Numbered from the stretch's first letter, positions 3,088-59,965 are shown. The stretch: DNA of 64,000 bases from Candidatus Zixiibacteriota bacterium (GCA_036480375.1 JAZGGI010000028.1:1-64000), one strand, 5' to 3'. Numbers and translations: made by a program. The notes: generated by a model from the sequence alone, not told the origin.

Positions 3088-3266
3088 TATTTCCGAGATT
3101 ATCCGCGTTTATAGAGTGAAATTTGTATGCGACTGTTTGAAAATTATATGGAGGAGAAGTCTTTTACGAAGTACGAAAAAGGACAAAACGAACCCAATTC
3201 TCCGCAATCAAAGACACAACAATAAATTACAAGGAATTTTCAAAAATCAAAATGTGGATAACTCAT
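3088..3266 (+). repeat. Dispersed intergenic repeat, copy A
   Basis: Aligns over most of its length with the reverse complement of ~27100-27275 and in part with 59624-59715. Shared blocks include ATCCGCxTTTATAGAxTGAAAT, AAAAAGGACAAAACGAACCC and TGTGGATAACTC. No coding pattern is kept between copies. Confidence 0.75.
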
Positions 3267-17516: not shown

Positions 17517-19259
17517 TTAGTTACAGGCCTCTTCCGGTGAAAGACCGTCTTTAAAAACATGATTAATTAGAAATACAGCATCGCCAACATTACAATCACC
17601 ATCGCAATTGGCGTCACCACATTCTAACCGATCCGGACCAGGACCGTTTTTGAAAACGTAGTTTATTATGTAAACAGCATCACCAACGTTTACATTATCA
17701 TCGCTATTGGCATCTCCCCGCTTATAATCGCACGCATCTCCAATATTATCACCGTCGGAATCGATTTGATCGGAGTTATAAGTATCCGGGCAATTATCCA
17801 GATCACACTGATTACCCCAATAATCAGGATCGCCAAATCCATCGCCGTCAGAATCAATACAAGGTACATTAGAGTACCTCAATCTAATTCCAACATCCGC
17901 ATGGCGGAGCAACCCGGCGTCAAACCACAACTCGCCATCGGCACTAACAAAAGTATATCCCGTCTCCTGCGGGCCATCGCCATCGCCCATAATGGGGTAA
18001 ACATGTTGTTCGTTGGTGACATTGGTAACAACATAAATATCATCTCCAATCGATACCGCAAGAGGCTCAGGCAATATTATGGAAAAGTAACCATATTCCA
18101 CAAAGCTATGATCAAGACTGCTACTCAATAGATTACTGGGTACACTTCCGTCAAAGTCATCATAAATATAAATATCAATATCGGTTGTCGGATCATTTGT
18201 CCAAAATTCTACTCGTGTGATGTAAGTTTCATTTTCAATGACATATTTACACATTCCCCAGGCTGTATTACTACTAAAACCGAGTTCTCTTGTGGGGCCG
18301 GCTTCATCATAAAACAAAATTCCACCATTGTGATCATAAGGCTGCCAATCGGACATATATTCAGGAAAGATTCCAATATAGGCAACTCCATAACCGATAG
18401 TGGCATATCCGCCTTCCGTTCCGGAACCACACGGACCTCCCCATGATGTGCCCATGCTATTTTTTATAATCCATCCGCCGGTTCCACCTTCATGGATTAG
18501 ATCATCATCCCAACCTACGATTAAAACTGAATGTCCGATTCCCCAAATCAATTCGGAATAGTATAAAGTATATGAACCGTCGTATGCCATAAGCTCATCA
18601 TACCATTCCGTATCAAAATCTCCCAGCCCCATCCCAACCTCCATAGGGCCATAAGTATAAAGATAATTCTTAATCAATTCCGGATCGGGAATTAGCTCAT
18701 CTGTAACTGTTCGGAGCCCTAAAAGTGTATGTTGAAAATCACAATCGGTTTTGCAGGAAACATTTGCAGGAATATAGGGATCGCAAGATTCTAATACGGT
18801 TCCATTTTCGGATAGCACGCATGATACCCAACTAAAACCGCCCCCGTCACAACTTAAATCGTGCCAATTACATTCCTTGATATGATTTTCAGACAGATTC
18901 CAGACTCCGGCACCATCCATTTGAAGCATCGATTCTACATTTGCCAATGCCCCGAACGAATAACAGGACCCGCAGGTTGGCCAATCCTGATCCTGTACAG
19001 CCGTTATAATACCCTTTTCCCGCCAATCCCAGCGAAAAGGAAGAGTAGTATTTTTAAATTTCTCTGGGATTTTGCGAACTGCTGCTTTGGCATCAATAGA
19101 TTTAATATCTTTTTGCAGTAACGTTGGGTCAGGAATACCCGGTTTAATGGTTATCATTTTGGGAAGATTTAAATCAGGAGATTCAATTTCATTTCCCAGT
19201 ATTATGCTGTTGAATATCAACTGTAGGATAAGAATTATATAAGCATTTCGGATAATCAT
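17517..19259 (-). CDS. Secreted papain-family (C1A) protease with TSP3 and dockerin repeats
   Basis: 580 aa. Signal peptide (residues 1-22); peptidase with QDWPTCGSCYSFGAL (Cys99), GHSVLIVGW (His ~246) and IIKNSMGTSWGG (Asn ~266), a full C1 triad. A ~110-aa beta domain follows. A thrombospondin-3-like Ca2+ stretch (DSDGDGFGDPDYWGNQCD) and two dockerin-type repeats (GDANSDDNVNVGDAVYIINY, GDANCDGDCNVGDAVFLINH) end the chain. Start at ATG 19259, which follows GGGGGCAGGT and sits directly before the signal peptide. The dockerin pair is shared with three other secreted proteins in the window. Confidence 0.9.
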   Translation of the reverse strand: MIIRNAYIILILQLIFNSIILGNEIESPDLNLPKMITIKPGIPDPTLLQKDIKSIDAKAAVRKIPEKFKNTTLPFRWDWREKGIITAVQDQDWPTCGSCYSFGALANVESMLQMDGAGVWNLSENHIKECNWHDLSCDGGGFSWVSCVLSENGTVLESCDPYIPANVSCKTDCDFQHTLLGLRTVTDELIPDPELIKNYLYTYGPMEVGMGLGDFDTEWYDELMAYDGSYTLYYSELIWGIGHSVLIVGWDDDLIHEGGTGGWIIKNSMGTSWGGPCGSGTEGGYATIGYGVAYIGIFPEYMSDWQPYDHNGGILFYDEAGPTRELGFSSNTAWGMCKYVIENETYITRVEFWTNDPTTDIDIYIYDDFDGSVPSNLLSSSLDHSFVEYGYFSIILPEPLAVSIGDDIYVVTNVTNEQHVYPIMGDGDGPQETGYTFVSADGELWFDAGLLRHADVGIRLRYSNVPCIDSDGDGFGDPDYWGNQCDLDNCPDTYNSDQIDSDGDNIGDACDYKRGDANSDDNVNVGDAVYIINYVFKNGPGPDRLECGDANCDGDCNVGDAVFLINHVFKDGLSPEEACN

Positions 19260-26940: not shown

Positions 26941-27275
26941 TCGTGCTTTTGATACACCGCGCGACAGCCAAAAACAGGCTTTTGCCTGCCAAAATGGGTT
27001 TGTTTCCTCAGATTAACGTTTTGGGTCATATCAACTCGGTGGTGATTCGGACAGGCGGGGGCCTGTTTTAATCTGTCAATCCGGCGAACGTTGGAATTTA
27101 TAAGAGTTATCCACAATCGCATTTTACAAAATTCCTTGTAATGGTAAACAACAGTTAAGCTTGCAGCGAATTGGGTTCGTTTTGTCCTTTTTCGTAGTTG
27201 TCAAAAGACTACTTTCCCATACAAAATTATCGCTCTACCGTAGATACATTTCATTCTATAAATGCGGATGATTTC
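26941..27275 (-). repeat. Dispersed intergenic repeat, copy B
   Basis: On the minus strand it matches copy A (3088-3266) through 27275-27100. It also matches copy C (59480-59715) through the block TTAATCTGAGGAAACAAACC (26991-27033 region) and the CACCGCGCGACAGC module (26950-26975). No gene is visible. Together with 27276-27360, which ends in an inverted-repeat-rich GCCTGCCACAACAAGTTGCG stretch, it fills the gap before the island. Confidence 0.75.
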
Positions 27276-27360: not shown

Positions 27361-28092
27361 TTATATTCCCAAAATTGGCGGTAACGGCCAATCCTCTAGC
27401 ATTGCCTCTATTGATATCTCCATTAGCTGATCTTCAGTAATACCATATTTATTGCAAATATCTTGTTTATATTTTATCACTTGCCGATCATATTCAGATA
27501 CATTCTCTCCCTTTTCCTCAAATGCCTGGCGTTGAGCTTTGATATTATCCCAGTATATTTTTAATCTAGTTTCTTCAGATATACCATATTTGATTTCATC
27601 ACGGGAATTTAAATAATTTAACTGTTCGTAATTCACCCAGATATCACGCTCAATATTGTATATTAGGGAAGCTATTGCGCTGCCACCATCGAAATGCTCT
27701 TTTGATATGTAAGCAATTATCGAATAATAAATATTATGACCATTAGATTGTGTATAGTACTGTGTCATTATGTCCCGCTCAATTTCTGTTAATAGCTTCT
27801 TTAAACCTTCCTCACTGATGTTGCCAAAAACTAATATGTCCAAATGTAATCTAATCCCGCCGACAACATCTCCTAACTCTTTTTTTAAAATTGAATATTG
27901 CGGAGTAATGATAGAATCAATTAATCTATTATCAGCTAGACTATAGTTAGCCTTATCCCTTAAAACATTTTTTTCATTAGGGAAAAATACCATTAACAAA
28001 ATTAATATTCCAAACAAACCGAGCACAATAGGGACTAATATGATATTTTTTCTTTTTCGTCTTTCTATTTCATTAGGACCTAAATTCATCAT
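27361..28092 (-). CDS. Hypothetical single-pass membrane protein
   Basis: 243 aa, not recognised. An N-terminal positively charged stretch (NEIERRKRKN) precedes one transmembrane helix (~17-38, IILVPIVLGLFGILILLMVFF). The remainder is a soluble, helix-rich domain on the outside with no motif I know. It is AT-rich. Start at ATG 28092, which follows GGGCGAGG and overlaps the stop of a 7-codon leader peptide. First (leftmost) gene of the four-gene island with shared promoters. Confidence 0.7.
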   Translation of the reverse strand: MMNLGPNEIERRKRKNIILVPIVLGLFGILILLMVFFPNEKNVLRDKANYSLADNRLIDSIITPQYSILKKELGDVVGGIRLHLDILVFGNISEEGLKKLLTEIERDIMTQYYTQSNGHNIYYSIIAYISKEHFDGGSAIASLIYNIERDIWVNYEQLNYLNSRDEIKYGISEETRLKIYWDNIKAQRQAFEEKGENVSEYDRQVIKYKQDICNKYGITEDQLMEISIEAMLEDWPLPPILGI

Positions 28093-28145
28093 AATATTTG
28101 TACCTCGCCCATTGGGTGGTTTAAAACGATTCACTTGCTATGCTA

Positions 28146-28174
28146 ATAATACCCCGTTTATATCCTAACGGCAA
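28146..28174 (-). promoter_or_regulatory. Island promoter 1
   Basis: TTGCCG (28169-28174) - 17 nt - TATTAT (28146-28151) on the minus strand, identical in both boxes and spacing to three other promoters in the island. The leader after it contains an ACCCA/TGGGC-like inverted repeat and a leader peptide MGEVQIL whose TGA overlaps the gene start. Confidence 0.75.
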
Positions 28175-28247
28175 GATAAATTAGATTGAATTGTATTTAC
28201 ACAGTTTTGGAAACCCGCATGGCATATAAACAATAAAATTGGTTCCA

Positions 28248-28736
28248 TCATACTAAACCAAAGTAAAGCACTCCAGGTATTTTATTTTTAAAACAGAATT
28301 CTGTTTCTATCAGGTCTCGTAAATCCGGTTTAATTTTAGCCAAATGATTTTTCCATTTTTTATTATCAGCGGTACAGGGGAAAACAATGAATACTACTGC
28401 TTTATTCTTAGTCTTAATTCGCTTTAGCTTGTCAATGTCTGCAAGTATCCCTTCAATATTCTTGGTGATGGGCCTATTTTTATTTTTTACATTTTCATAC
28501 CCATAATTAGTATTAATAGTTTTTAATTCTATCGCCCAGTCCTCAAAGCAAACATCAATTCTGTTTTTTTCGGGAACCACACTATTAAAATTTACTCCTA
28601 GACTATCAATAATCTCTACTTTAAGCCAACCTTCGAATTTGGCTCTTTCTCGCGCGAATATAGACAATCCAAAATTCCCCTTTATTTTTTTAATAATAGC
28701 ATTAGCTATTAGAGCGTTAATTATCCCAAAGTCCAT
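28248..28736 (-). CDS. Hypothetical protein, PD-(D/E)XK nuclease-like
   Basis: 162 aa, AT-rich. The stretch RIDVCFEDWAIELKTINTNY has D-x9/10-E-x-K spacing, the core of PD-(D/E)XK nucleases. It is preceded by a helix with a possible Glu (FEGWLKVEIIDSL) and followed by a strand KAVVFIVFPC. Whether it cuts DNA is unknown; it may be a restriction-like or repair nuclease or an inactive relative. The ATG at 28736 has an ideal SD (GGTGAGG); a GTG lies 3 codons upstream. Single gene under island promoter 2. Confidence 0.55.
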   Translation of the reverse strand: MDFGIINALIANAIIKKIKGNFGLSIFARERAKFEGWLKVEIIDSLGVNFNSVVPEKNRIDVCFEDWAIELKTINTNYGYENVKNKNRPITKNIEGILADIDKLKRIKTKNKAVVFIVFPCTADNKKWKNHLAKIKPDLRDLIETEFCFKNKIPGVLYFGLV

Positions 28737-28801
28737 AAACCTCACCTATCACTTGCACCCCACCCATCGGCCGGGTTCAAAAATATTTACTTGTTGATTT
28801 A

Positions 28802-28830
28802 ATAATACCCCAATTATATCCCAACGGCAA
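28802..28830 (-). promoter_or_regulatory. Island promoter 2
   Basis: TTGCCG (28825-28830) - N17 - TATTAT (28802-28807). The leader holds CCGATGGGTGGGG and a leader reading frame beginning MGGVQVIGEV that runs across the start of the nuclease-like gene in another frame. Confidence 0.75.
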
Positions 28831-28856
28831 GATAAATTAGAATGCCAAGGTTCCAA

Positions 28857-29642
28857 CTACAAACCCTCTACATCAACCTCATCAATCAGCCCGTGAATTG
28901 AATTTAATCGAATTTTCATCGATCTAATGATCGGGTAAAGGGGTGTATCATCGAACATCAACTTGTTGCCCCACACACTTTCAGGCACTAAGTTTCTTGC
29001 ATAATTACGGACCGCGTTATCCCAGGATTGCGGATCCGGAAAGGGATTTGGCATTTCGTCTGCATTCAGAAACCCAAGATACACAAGTACAACCGGAATG
29101 CCGAGAGTCGCGAGCTTCCAACTCCACGCGAAGCGGTTACAGAGTTGGTAATGGCTTTTGTGTGACAAATTCCACCCATCCCGAATCTTATTAAGACCGT
29201 CATTGGCTTCGCCAACAGCTTCTCCGATTCGCTCAATATTTTTCTCATTTTTGGCTCCGATACAATCGTTCGGATTCAACTCCCCATGGTGCGCCTTGGC
29301 CTCAACCAGAAGTAAGCCAGGTTTGCCATCAATAGTGCAGGTGCTGGCGATATCCCAGTTTGGTGTTACCGGATTGCGCCTGGCAACGGCAAGCCACCAC
29401 GACTTGAGCGCCTGACCATACGGATTTACATCGAGCAAACGCTGCGCGTTGTGCAACTGGGCTTCTTTAACATCATCGAAGCCTTGCGGCATCCAGTTGT
29501 CGTTCGCAGAAACCAAACCCAACGGGGTGATCAACCTGGTCAACCGCTCGGCGACCTGTTCCGGAGCCCCGTGAGTTATCAGATGGCAACGAGGCTTACT
29601 GCCGGCTCTTTGATTTGACTTTAGATTTTGTAATAAGTTCAT
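28857..29642 (-). CDS. Hypothetical protein, possible PD-(D/E)XK fold
   Basis: 261 aa, unrecognised. NWDIASTCTIDGKPGLLLVEAKAHHGEL gives D-x15/16-E-x-K with strand-like surroundings, as in endonuclease-fold proteins. The rest is Trp-rich and helical. Noticeably richer in G+C than the two genes to its left, so the island is a mosaic. I start at ATG 29642; the frame opens at 29669, but that would place the promoter -10 inside the coding region. The chosen start lies only ~5 nt from the predicted transcription start, with no SD. Confidence 0.55.
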   Translation of the reverse strand: MNLLQNLKSNQRAGSKPRCHLITHGAPEQVAERLTRLITPLGLVSANDNWMPQGFDDVKEAQLHNAQRLLDVNPYGQALKSWWLAVARRNPVTPNWDIASTCTIDGKPGLLLVEAKAHHGELNPNDCIGAKNEKNIERIGEAVGEANDGLNKIRDGWNLSHKSHYQLCNRFAWSWKLATLGIPVVLVYLGFLNADEMPNPFPDPQSWDNAVRNYARNLVPESVWGNKLMFDDTPLYPIIRSMKIRLNSIHGLIDEVDVEGL

Positions 29643-29653
29643 AAGGTGAATTA

Positions 29654-29682
29654 ATAATACCAATATCATATCCTAACGGCAA
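29654..29682 (-). promoter_or_regulatory. Island promoter 3 (leader missing)
   Basis: TTGCCG (29677-29682) - N17 - TATTAT (29654-29659). Unlike the other three copies, no CCCACCCGATGGGTGAG leader follows. The ATG at 29642 falls within a few nt of the expected +1, so the mRNA would be almost leaderless. Confidence 0.7.
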
Positions 29683-29694
29683 GATATATTATAT

Positions 29695-29797
29695 TGTCAT
29701 ACCAGCGAAAGCTGGCATCCATGCGGACTAATCGCCAACTGACAAACACAACTATTCTCCAAACGCTGTATGGATTCCCGCTTTCGCGGGAATGACA
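29695..29797. repeat. MITE-like inverted-repeat element
   Basis: Ends TGTCATACCAGCGAAAGCTGG... and ...CCCGCTTTCGCGGGAATGACA are imperfect inverted repeats around a ~40-nt centre. The type resembles the widespread TGTCATxCCxGCGAAAGC elements seen in many genomes. A short stem with T-run (ACAGCC/GGCTGT, 29795-29814) follows. The left end abuts island promoter 3; a degenerate start of the same element (ATTGTCATGCCTGATTCCGC) abuts promoter 4 at ~30667. Confidence 0.7.
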
Positions 29798-29918
29798 GCC
29801 AGAAGGCTGTTTTTGGCTATCGCGTATATGATCCTAAATATGTAACATCACGGGTGACATCATTTGAAACACACTCCGTCTACCCCGCAGCGGAGCTGTA
29901 GGCCACCGGACGCCGGTG

Positions 29919-30539
29919 TCAGGCTGGTTTCTTCTGTATCAGAACAAAGAGGTGGCCCGGCCCAGGCGAAGTGGCATCTTCCACGATTCGCGACCAGATT
30001 ATCTCAAATCCACAGGCAGCGATCAGAGCCAGATTCGTCTCGAAGTCGTAATGACTCCAATACATCCGAACGCCCAGATAATCTTCGACGATGTCATTTT
30101 CCAGATCGTCTGCCCCAAGGCAAAGCAGTGCCAGACCGGACGGCTTAAGCATTCGAAAGAAGTGCTGAAAGATAGCTTCGTGTGCCTGTCGCGGAATGTG
30201 GATAATCGTATAATAGGAGCAGATTGCGTCGAAGGTGGCGTCGGGAAAGGTCAGATCAGTGATATCCTGGCAAATAAACAGCGCCTGAGGTACCATTTTG
30301 CGAGCAAGTTTAATCTGGGCCTCGGAGAAATCCACACCCACAACCTGGAAGTACTGACTCAACAACTGAGTTACCGGTACTCCGGCACCGCAACCGGCAT
30401 CGAGAACCGACGCGCCTTGAGGCAGCCGTTGTACCAAATCGTCAAGTAATTGCACATCTTCGGAGTCTTTAGTACGACTCGCAAGGTAAGCCTCGGAGAT
30501 ATTATTGTATCCGGCTTTGACGATTTCTTTGTTGTTCAT
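29919..30539 (-). CDS. Class I SAM-dependent methyltransferase
   Basis: 206 aa. SAM-binding motif I VLDAGCGAGVPVTQLL, motif II VVGVDFSEAQIKLAR, motif III-like DITDLTFPDATFDAICSY, then a Rossmann-type C-terminus. The substrate is not predictable; the family includes small-molecule methyltransferases. ATG 30539 overlaps the TGA of an upstream 11-codon leader frame (MTVERIALQAT), itself overlapping a 6-codon frame MGEIQV. Single gene under island promoter 4. Confidence 0.85.
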   Translation of the reverse strand: MNNKEIVKAGYNNISEAYLASRTKDSEDVQLLDDLVQRLPQGASVLDAGCGAGVPVTQLLSQYFQVVGVDFSEAQIKLARKMVPQALFICQDITDLTFPDATFDAICSYYTIIHIPRQAHEAIFQHFFRMLKPSGLALLCLGADDLENDIVEDYLGVRMYWSHYDFETNLALIAACGFEIIWSRIVEDATSPGPGHLFVLIQKKPA

Positions 30540-30627
30540 CACGTCGCTTGAAGAGCTATTCTCTCAACAGTCATTAAACCTGTATCTCACCCATCGGGTG
30601 GGTTTAAACGTTTAGTCCGATGATTTA

Positions 30628-30656
30628 ATAATACACCGATTATATCTAAACGGCAA
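30628..30656 (-). promoter_or_regulatory. Island promoter 4
   Basis: TTGCCG (30651-30656) - N17 - TATTAT (30628-30633). The leader contains ACCCACCCGATGGGTGAG (30585-30605 region) and two short overlapping peptides before the methyltransferase. Confidence 0.75.
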
Positions 30657-30745
30657 GATAATTTATATTGTCATGCCTGATTCCGCAGGAGCCTGATCAA
30701 AACATAACTCTTTCAAAACAAAATATTTTTGTCTTTATTAGTAAT

Positions 30746-40648: not shown

Positions 40649-41209
40649 TTACTCCACACAACCGCACTGCGCCGGGGGTCCACCCTTGAAAACGTGGGCG
40701 ATCAAAAAGACCGCATCACCGACATTAACCGCACAATCAAAATTGGCATCACCTTCGTTCAATTCTTGCGGCGCCGGACCTCCTTTGAATACATGAGCAA
40801 TCAAATAAACAGCATCGCCGACATTGGTCGAACCATCATGATTGGCGTCGCCCGCGGTAGCACAACCACTGGCGCCAGCTTCAAAAGTCTGCAGGAAGCC
40901 ATGGTTCAGCACTTTGTCTCCACCGGTGCCCTCTCCAACGGCGGTCTGCCCAACCGTACTGCTCAATTTATAATTTGAAGATTCGCCTTCAATGGTGCCG
41001 CCGCCAGATATAACCTGCCAATTTATCTCTTCACCGGTCATAATGGCTTTTACAGCCAACTTTGCCAGCTCATTTTTATCCTGGGTGCTCTCTGTCGGCG
41101 AAACAGATTGTTTTACGTCAGCCACCTTTTTCTCAACTTCTGCCGCAAGGCCAATAGATGTTGTGAGAAGCAGTATAATGAGGCCAATCGTTGCCAATTT
41201 AGTTTTCAT
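40649..41209 (-). CDS. Small secreted dockerin-pair protein (module 1)
   Basis: 186 aa. Signal peptide (1-22), then a short domain INWQVISGGGTIEGESSNYK...VGQTAVGEG...LNHGFLQ, and two dockerin repeats (GDANHDGSTNVGDAVYLIAH, GDANFDCAVNVGDAVFLIAH). A paralogue with the same layout lies at 43626-44468. It follows the fibre-like gene (41276-43402) by 66 nt on the same strand, so the two form one transcription unit. Confidence 0.85.
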   Translation of the reverse strand: MKTKLATIGLIILLLTTSIGLAAEVEKKVADVKQSVSPTESTQDKNELAKLAVKAIMTGEEINWQVISGGGTIEGESSNYKLSSTVGQTAVGEGTGGDKVLNHGFLQTFEAGASGCATAGDANHDGSTNVGDAVYLIAHVFKGGPAPQELNEGDANFDCAVNVGDAVFLIAHVFKGGPPAQCGCVE

Positions 41210-43625: not shown

Positions 43626-44468
43626 TTATTTGCAGCTTTCGCACGGAGCCGGTCCGCCTTTGAAGACGTGATTTATTAAATATACTGCATCCCCGACGTT
43701 GCAGTCACTATCACAGTTGGCATCGCAAGTTTCAATCGGATCTGATGCGGGGCCGCCCTTGAATACGTGATTGATGATAAAGACCGCATCGCCGACATTA
43801 ATATCCTCATCGCCATTGGCATCTCCGCAGATATATTCCTTCTCTGCCAAACTAAAGCCGGAGAAAGAATCCGTGATTCCGCAAATCCGGTTTTCATCTA
43901 TATATACCGTATCCGTTATATCATTCCAACCGGGCGGGTCTTCATCGTTCCTATGCATAAGGCGTAAATTCGATTCGTTTCCCTGAATATCATTCTCATC
44001 ATAAGTGAAACATATCCTAATACTCCCATAAAAATCAGCAGTTGTTGTAATTTCATAATATATAGGGGGAGAGCTTGGGACTAGCTTGAACCCTTCTGGT
44101 GGAGTCAATTCACCCGGATTGCTTATAATGACGCTTGTAATTCCCGGTGAAATGACACTATCGAAAGTAATTATAAGACTATCCGTTATGGGTACTTCAA
44201 CGTTTGGCCCCGGTTCTGTATTGCCGCGGATTAAAACTCGTTGCCAAAACCCGTGACTTAATCCATTCTCAGCAAATAAGCTTGTTCCAATAGCGGTTTG
44301 TCCCACAGTTCCGCTGATTAAAAATGTGTCAATTGAAGTATTCATATGACCGCCTGAGGATATGGCCTGCCAGTTTATTCCTTCATCAGCTTTTTCATCG
44401 GCCAGACCGCCTGTACTGAAAAGTAGTATGGCAAATATGGCGATATGGCACATTGCTTTATTTTTCAT
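43626..44468 (-). CDS. Secreted dockerin-pair protein (module 2)
   Basis: 280 aa, paralogue of 40649-41209. Signal peptide, the INWQAISSGGHMNTS...VGQTAIGTSLFAENGLSHGF domain, a ~110-aa added beta domain absent from module 1 (PITDSLIITFDSVISPG...), and two dockerin repeats (GDANGDEDINVGDAVFIINH, CDANCDSDCNVGDAVYLINH). Lies 31 nt downstream of its fibre partner. Confidence 0.85.
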   Translation of the reverse strand: MKNKAMCHIAIFAILLFSTGGLADEKADEGINWQAISSGGHMNTSIDTFLISGTVGQTAIGTSLFAENGLSHGFWQRVLIRGNTEPGPNVEVPITDSLIITFDSVISPGITSVIISNPGELTPPEGFKLVPSSPPIYYEITTTADFYGSIRICFTYDENDIQGNESNLRLMHRNDEDPPGWNDITDTVYIDENRICGITDSFSGFSLAEKEYICGDANGDEDINVGDAVFIINHVFKGGPASDPIETCDANCDSDCNVGDAVYLINHVFKGGPAPCESCK

Positions 44469-59221: not shown

Positions 59222-59965
59222 CATAGTCCCGACAGAATTAATTCACATTCCGGACAGACATACCCGCCTGTCCGGAAACCACCCAATTTTTACCCAAATT
59301 GCCCTTAATTACGGACTTCCCTCTTTCGGTGAGGATAACTATTGGAATGACAAAAGAACATTAAGGAAGAATAAGATAAATGACAAAATTTTCTGTAAAA
59401 AGTTTAGCTAAGCTACGCGACAGCCGAAAAGGGATAACATCCCCAACAGCCAAAAAACAGGCATCCGCCTGTCGGAATCACCATCGATTTGATATGACCA
59501 AAAACGTTAATCTGAGGAAACAAACCCATTTTTACCGCGCAGGTGTGGACACCTGCACGGCACCAAATACTATTAACATGATGTGGATACACCGCGCGAC
59601 AGCTGAAAACAGGCTTTCGCCTGAAAAAGGACAAAACGAACCCAATTCGCTGTAACTCAAACAAAAACAAGAGATTACAGGGAATTTCCAAAAAAGAAAA
59701 TGTGAATAACTCGGTATCGTGGGTTGACTAATGTCACCGAACAATGTTTGATGACGGCGATTGCGATGAACATCAAGAAGATGGCGGGCCATCTTTATTA
59801 TTTGGTCATTTATTGGTTGAAAAAGCGCTTTTATTGGCAAATTATCATCCTGAAAGCCGGAAATCGTTTTTTCATAAATTCCTCCATTGCGTGGTTTATT
59901 AGACAAAATTCATACTTGTCTAATTCGTAACACAAGAATCTATTAAATGTTTTTTTGATTTTCGA
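59222..59965. other. Repeat-bearing intergenic region
   Basis: No gene found in 744 nt. It carries copy C of the dispersed repeat (59480-59715) and a GCAGGTGT...ACACCTGC hairpin around 59540-59560. The open frames in this stretch are repeat-derived and end with a QNEPNSL-type tail typical of such spurious frames. Confidence 0.55.
59480..59715 (+). repeat. Dispersed intergenic repeat, copy C
   Basis: Matches copy B (26941-27275, reverse) in the TTAATCTGAGGAAACAAACC block (59505-59525) and in AAAAAGGACAAAACGAACCC (59624-59643). It matches copy A in the last ~80 nt (TTACAxGGAATTTxCAAAAA...TGTGxATAACTC). A hairpin GCAGGTGTGGACACCTGC is inserted in this copy only. Confidence 0.75.

Follow-up and report, generated by a model that had tools for sequence, protein, structure and literature searches.

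A putative sigma-70-type promoter family before unrelated, mostly acquired genes in one Candidatus Zixiibacteriota genome

Four consecutive minus-strand genes in a 64,000-nucleotide stretch of Candidatus Zixiibacteriota DNA (GCA_036480375.1, JAZGGI010000028.1:1-64000; hereafter the window) are each preceded by the same short sequence, which raises the question of how one promoter-like repeat came to stand before several unrelated genes. A sequence-only reading of the locus had described four TTGCCG-N17-TATTAT sites with a common flank, and all four are present on the minus strand. The four repeats are 71-110 nt long, with 0 copies expected by chance, and a 36-nt pattern of their common bases matches the window four times, exactly at the four copies, and not once in 100 dinucleotide shuffles. 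On the plus strand the common flank reads CTAACGGCAAGATAA, with the variants CCCAACGGC.. in copy 2 and CTAAACGGC.. in copy 4. The features are listed below; models R1 and R2 were used for the core and R3 for the leader, and the E-values of cores and leaders are inflated because these models were built from hits of the same genome.

28133..28190, minus strand: copy 1, predicted promoter core TTGCCG-N17-TATTAT, spacer and 5' flank conserved (E 7e-16)
28094..28141, minus strand: copy 1, leader A with the REP-like CCACCCAATGGGCGAGGTAC within, part of the gene 1 5' UTR (E 1.6e-11)
27361..28092, minus strand: gene 1, membrane protein of no known family, G+C 32%
28789..28846, minus strand: copy 2, predicted promoter core (E 1.8e-16)
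28750..28800, minus strand: copy 2, leader A (E 4.7e-10)
28248..28736, minus strand: gene 2, 162 aa, outside known families, possible nuclease from its D..ELK motif, G+C 32%
29641..29698, minus strand: copy 3, predicted promoter core without leader A, start codon ~12 nt on (E 7.2e-15)
28857..29642, minus strand: gene 3, 261 aa, conserved WD...EAK motif, nuclease-like; paralogue on contig C33 85% identical, with the same promoter
29699..29805, no strand: REPIN/BIME-like inverted hairpin pair abutting copy 3 upstream; homologous pair upstream of the C33 copy
30615..30672, minus strand: copy 4, predicted promoter core (E 1.9e-15)
30576..30625, minus strand: copy 4, leader A (E 2.7e-10)
29919..30539, minus strand: gene 4, SAM-dependent methyltransferase (Methyltransf_25, E 2.7e-22)

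The window's four genes are thus four promoter-gene units in series, and the repeat block 5' of gene 4 extends to 30672. Compared among themselves, the four proteins are not significantly similar, as had been claimed. Their proposed identities stood only in part: the methyltransferase is confirmed, the nuclease-like label depends on motifs, and genes 1-3 match no family above cut-off in Pfam, NCBIfam or PADLOC. We call gene 3 nuclease-like on the basis of its WD...EAK motif, which is invariant in six homologues, and gene 2 a possible nuclease from the D..ELK motif read from its sequence, nothing more. A search of the PDB for relatives of gene 3 found none, and AlphaFold models of genes 2 and 3 made without an alignment reached a pLDDT of 33-34.

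Copies 1, 2 and 4 have a leader of ~50 nt in common, with CCCACCC[AG]ATGGGYGRG, which copy 3 does not carry, in agreement with the sequence-only reading; in copy 3 only about 12 nt separate the -10 from the start codon. That this leader codes for a peptide was not borne out. Its ATG has no Shine-Dalgarno sequence and is absent in the copy on contig C39, and the short frames (6-41 codons) appear to share only residues forced by the repeated DNA.

Searches of the genome assembly (3.59 Mb, 50 contigs), together with targeted stretches of it, gave about 23 copies of the repeat over 16 contigs; relatives with 83% protein identity are likewise named Candidatus Zixiibacteriota. The original observation is confirmed and larger than described, and its interpretation is partly supported: a promoter-leader unit does precede unrelated genes, about 20 of them, unlike a normal operon. 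In a gapless alignment on the -35, the core of the 23 copies is TTGCCATTATCATATAATnnnGGTATTATTAA, with a 17-bp spacer in all. By its sequence this core is a predicted sigma-70-type promoter (-35 TTGCCG, -10 TATTAT, spacer invariant at 17 bp), about 33 bp long, or about 100 bp with a leader attached. Over the 23 copies the mean information per position is 1.44 bits in the -35 and 1.46 bits in the -10. The first 12 bases of the spacer nearly match this conservation (positions 7-18, mean 1.10 bits; positions 19-23, 0.62), and the flanks fall to 0.15 bits per position upstream and 0.21 downstream. Pairs of copies have a mean identity of 0.74 over the core and of 0.29-0.30 over the flanks, which are unrelated between copies apart from two alternative leaders.

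The genome's general promoter consensus was rejected as the source of this likeness. The 352 kb of loci contain 25 TTGC..TATWAT pairs with spacing 17, compared to 4-6 for the spacings 15, 16, 18 and 19, and 21 of the 25 (all but 4) are members of the family. Model R2, with E-values inflated as stated, sets the family apart from the background with 20 hits at E < 0.001. Since the excess is limited to spacing 17 and R2 separates these copies, they form a family of their own, as opposed to the tail of a general consensus.

The genes behind the promoter (cargo) are about 20 in number and mutually unrelated. Of the 23 copies, 20 have an ORF of 130 aa or more behind them on the same strand within 250 nt, compared to 31% for intergenic positions (p = 4e-8); this orientation test, like the G+C test below, relied on simple ORF calls and a comparison pool that includes the cargo. 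The other three copies (C24, C23 and C49:66021) have no gene directly behind. In the window and on contig C33 the cargo comprises the membrane protein, nuclease-like gene 2, gene 3 (twice) and the methyltransferase. Further cargo includes a TIR protein, DUF4238/SEC-C, DUF4062, an ion channel, GNAT, SnoaL, a Big_5 lipoprotein and a beta-barrel protein, together with a DUF2971 protein that corresponds to PADLOC PDC-S31 (E 1e-72), PD-Lambda-5_A (E 4e-53) and a UDG-like protein whose match is below cut-off; several genes have no family at all. Cargo G+C spans 0.32 to 0.56: 11 of 20 genes are among the lowest ~6% and others reach 0.50-0.56, well above the mean, and these mixed values point to several origins. 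The cargo is mostly acquired or foreign-looking; the copies on C39 and C1 serve envelope proteins without clear foreign origin, and some cargo is not AT-rich.

Unrelated cargo, and the repeat-gene-repeat-gene order seen in the window and on contig C49, are what an integron-like or other site-specific cassette system would produce, with the repeat as the recombination site of each promoter-gene cassette. The sequence-only reading had proposed such gene capture, with the common flank as a possible recombination site. Our results make this highly improbable. No integron integrase is present, as the six full tyrosine recombinases score 46-152 bits against an integron-integrase cut-off of 265 (TIGR02249), and the best of them (152 bits) is XerD-like. 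Folding of both strands of the four window copies gave no consistent attC-like structure (mostly weak, z +0.6 to -2.3), and paired GTTRRRY/RYYYAAC cores were not seen at the cassette ends. Conservation runs out at the promoter, and its limit is not marked by a recombination core. In addition, copies are mostly single and dispersed, the distance from repeat to gene is variable, and the core is in none of 131 other Zixiibacteriota genomes. The comparison with chromosomal integrons thus holds for unrelated cargo genes that follow one another with a repeat in between, and fails for the integrase, for attC, for the dispersed single copies and for a repeat that bears a promoter before each gene.

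How the copies came to be alike is a question on which the core and its surroundings speak differently. The limits of the conserved block coincide almost exactly with the promoter edges, which fits selection or convergence as well as copying. An ordinary regulon would explain why conservation is limited to the promoter and includes the spacer: the accessory genes, though unrelated, would all have evolved or retained a binding site, overlapping the spacer, for a single regulator or special sigma factor, and the likeness would be functional and not copied. The best-scoring dyad position is indeed in the centre of the spacer (ATTAT-CAT-ATAAT, 5+5, mean 3.7 of 5 pairs), and the conserved spacer suggests a shared control signal, possibly this dyad, in the main subfamily, where it is best kept. 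However, the dyad is poor in the window's subfamily (2-3 of 5 pairs), a matching regulator was not found, and convergence would hardly yield leaders at a near-fixed distance, common flanks of 40-260 nt or a duplicated promoter-gene unit. We regard a regulon without copying as rather unlikely.

The leaders and flanks carry the argument for copying. Leader A is found in nine copies (window copies 1, 2 and 4, and contigs C1, C39, C49, C36, C26 and C14) and leader B in five (contigs C50, C24, C49, C8 and C20), both 3' of the -10 at a near-fixed distance. Subsets of copies have longer flanks of 40-260 nt in common, several of which end near the predicted transcription start. On C49, a 260-nt repeat that is 97% identical flanks a SnoaL-type gene and ends right at this start, and C20 and C8 have >100 nt in common at 94%, ending at the same point. 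The four window genes are also not bound to one another, as gene 3 recurs with its own promoter on C33: promoter, REPIN pair and gene are duplicated between window copy 3 and C33 (87% identity outside the coding sequence, 90% within the gene). Within this genome the repeat is thus neither confined to one place nor tied to four genes that always go together. Leaders common to several copies at a near-fixed distance and longer common flanks favour descent by copying over convergence, and the family was probably made in this way.

The sequence-only reading had named, as support for its view, the repeat before different genes in many genomes, and this search came out negative. The core pattern has 11 matches in its own genome and 0 in 131 other Zixiibacteriota genomes, model R2 found no strong match in 193 other genomes, and two exact degenerate core patterns had no match in viral contigs, on which basis a phage origin was rejected. 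Homologues of gene 3 (six genomes) and of the DUF2971 cargo (21 genomes) are patchily distributed, and those examined in other Zixiibacteriota genera have neither promoter nor leader. Where larger stretches around gene 3 homologues were read, genes 1, 2 and 4 were not nearby, and a search of plasmids for gene 3 did not find it. Together, these homologues and the missing core suggest that the promoter was gained in its own lineage. The nearest relatives offer no clean empty site; ackA-fnr-gltA upstream of the block is common to them and the other side differs. One locus in another genome (G003, L122), with TTATTATATAATCGT 5' of a leader A hairpin, was rejected as a cross-genome copy, being too weak and without any R2 hit.

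These data also bear on whether genes and promoter came together from one mobile pool, i.e., a phage, satellite or plasmid that used this promoter. The cargo is accessory and of defence type and often AT-rich, as such a pool would supply, but its G+C range of 0.32 to 0.56 is not that of one source, neither viral contigs (searched with exact patterns) nor the 131 genomes contain the core, and homologues elsewhere do without the promoter. A common mobile source is thus very unlikely.

The explanation we prefer, with a probability of roughly 60%, is a lineage-specific sigma-70-type promoter family that was spread by DNA copying before mostly acquired single genes and is kept by selection. Copying would be duplication or recombination between dispersed repeats; copies would arrive in front of about 20 single genes, unrelated and mostly acquired, where selection would retain the core. 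Each copy would act as an ordinary outward promoter, where RNA polymerase binds TTGCC-N17-TATTAT and transcription passes leader A, with REP-like hairpin sequence at its end, or leader B before reaching one gene, so that acquired genes are probably given common expression. The promoter sequences suggest that the copies are active. As for the direction of movement, promoters to genes or genes behind promoters, we can only infer it. A bolder version, that the host itself adopts foreign genes by installing a lineage-specific promoter-leader unit before single genes it has newly acquired, many of them defence-type, is distinctly unlikely; one promoter, and perhaps one regulator reading the spacer, would then form a dispersed counterpart of the integron common promoter without the integrase. 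It is still an open question how a new host comes to express foreign genes, and about 20 genes under near-identical lineage-specific promoters are a natural case of it. The family predicts which genes are co-expressed and, for an uncultured phylum, singles out candidate defence genes.

Repeated or mobile promoters are a known kind, and the family fits it, favouring acquired, defence-type single genes to a notable degree. Putative mobile promoters were reportedly described by Matus-Garcia, Nijveen and van Passel in 2012. Such promoters are cited in PMC9208149 and PMC8049555, and, as far as those papers describe them, the likeness is a short repeat upstream of unrelated genes in one genome, presumably a promoter and copied; the differences are a 33-bp core that includes the spacer, unrelated flanks, two leaders and cargo rich in foreign or defence-type genes. 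As in a mobile promoter, near-identical upstream sequence precedes about 20 non-homologous genes, with identity high in the core only, and homologues of two cargo genes lack it, the compared genomes being of other genera. Correia repeat enclosed elements of Neisseria are likewise small dispersed intergenic repeats supplying promoters to adjacent genes (PMC2649163); they contain inverted repeats, and promoters can arise at their ends. Unlike them, the present repeat is not bounded by inverted repeats, and its conserved block showed neither terminal inverted repeats nor a target duplication.

The resemblance to REP/REPIN sequences and RAYT (PMC8049555) concerns leader A. Its 3' half is a REP-like hairpin, CCCACCCAATGGGTGGGATAC, which also occurs as solo copies in the same genome, without preferred orientation relative to genes, and alone in 10 of 193 other genomes searched, other Zixiibacteriota among them. 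This half is thus a dispersed short palindromic repeat in a genome with RAYT genes, which score above cut-off. The promoter core, unlike a REP/REPIN, is not a REP, and most copies have no flanking paired REPs: paired inverted REPs around the promoter were not found, as there is one hairpin only, downstream, and upstream hairpins are of another type and present in some copies only. A selected RNA structure was rejected for the leader hairpin, whose pairing is broken in several promoter-linked copies and perfect in most solo copies, and an Rfam search with the leader returned no family. RAYT is a candidate mover of the promoter, one such gene adjoining the DUF4062 gene on C26.

Several repeats were observed alongside the promoter family. 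GTCATnCC-type REPIN/BIME-like inverted hairpins adjoin the promoter at copy 3 and on C33 and lie farther away on C49. At C49:65148-66072 (L224 9150-10080), a SnoaL-type gene sits between two 260-nt direct repeats, each ending at a promoter, and at C26:111923-112075 (L250), the DUF4062 cargo gene and the promoter copy before it are followed directly by a RAYT gene. A MITE-like element of ~150 nt (GTTGAAAAA...TTTTTCAAC) lies inside a solo leader hairpin at C36:21992-22182 (L095/L101), with CCCAATG on both sides, which resembles a target duplication; related copies are at C28:72465 and on C42. A dispersed intergenic repeat of ~250 nt with the core GAATTGGGTTCGTTTTGTCC occurs in both orientations (26944-27224, 59454-59712 and 3144-3264). 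One of its copies adjoins the accessory block, and similar stretches precede a RAYT gene (L248) and occur in G035 (L124). Finally, paired 78-nt repeats, 99 nt apart, at 17541-17717, 40676-40852 and 43650-43826 are, by resemblance only, dockerin-like repeats of secreted proteins.
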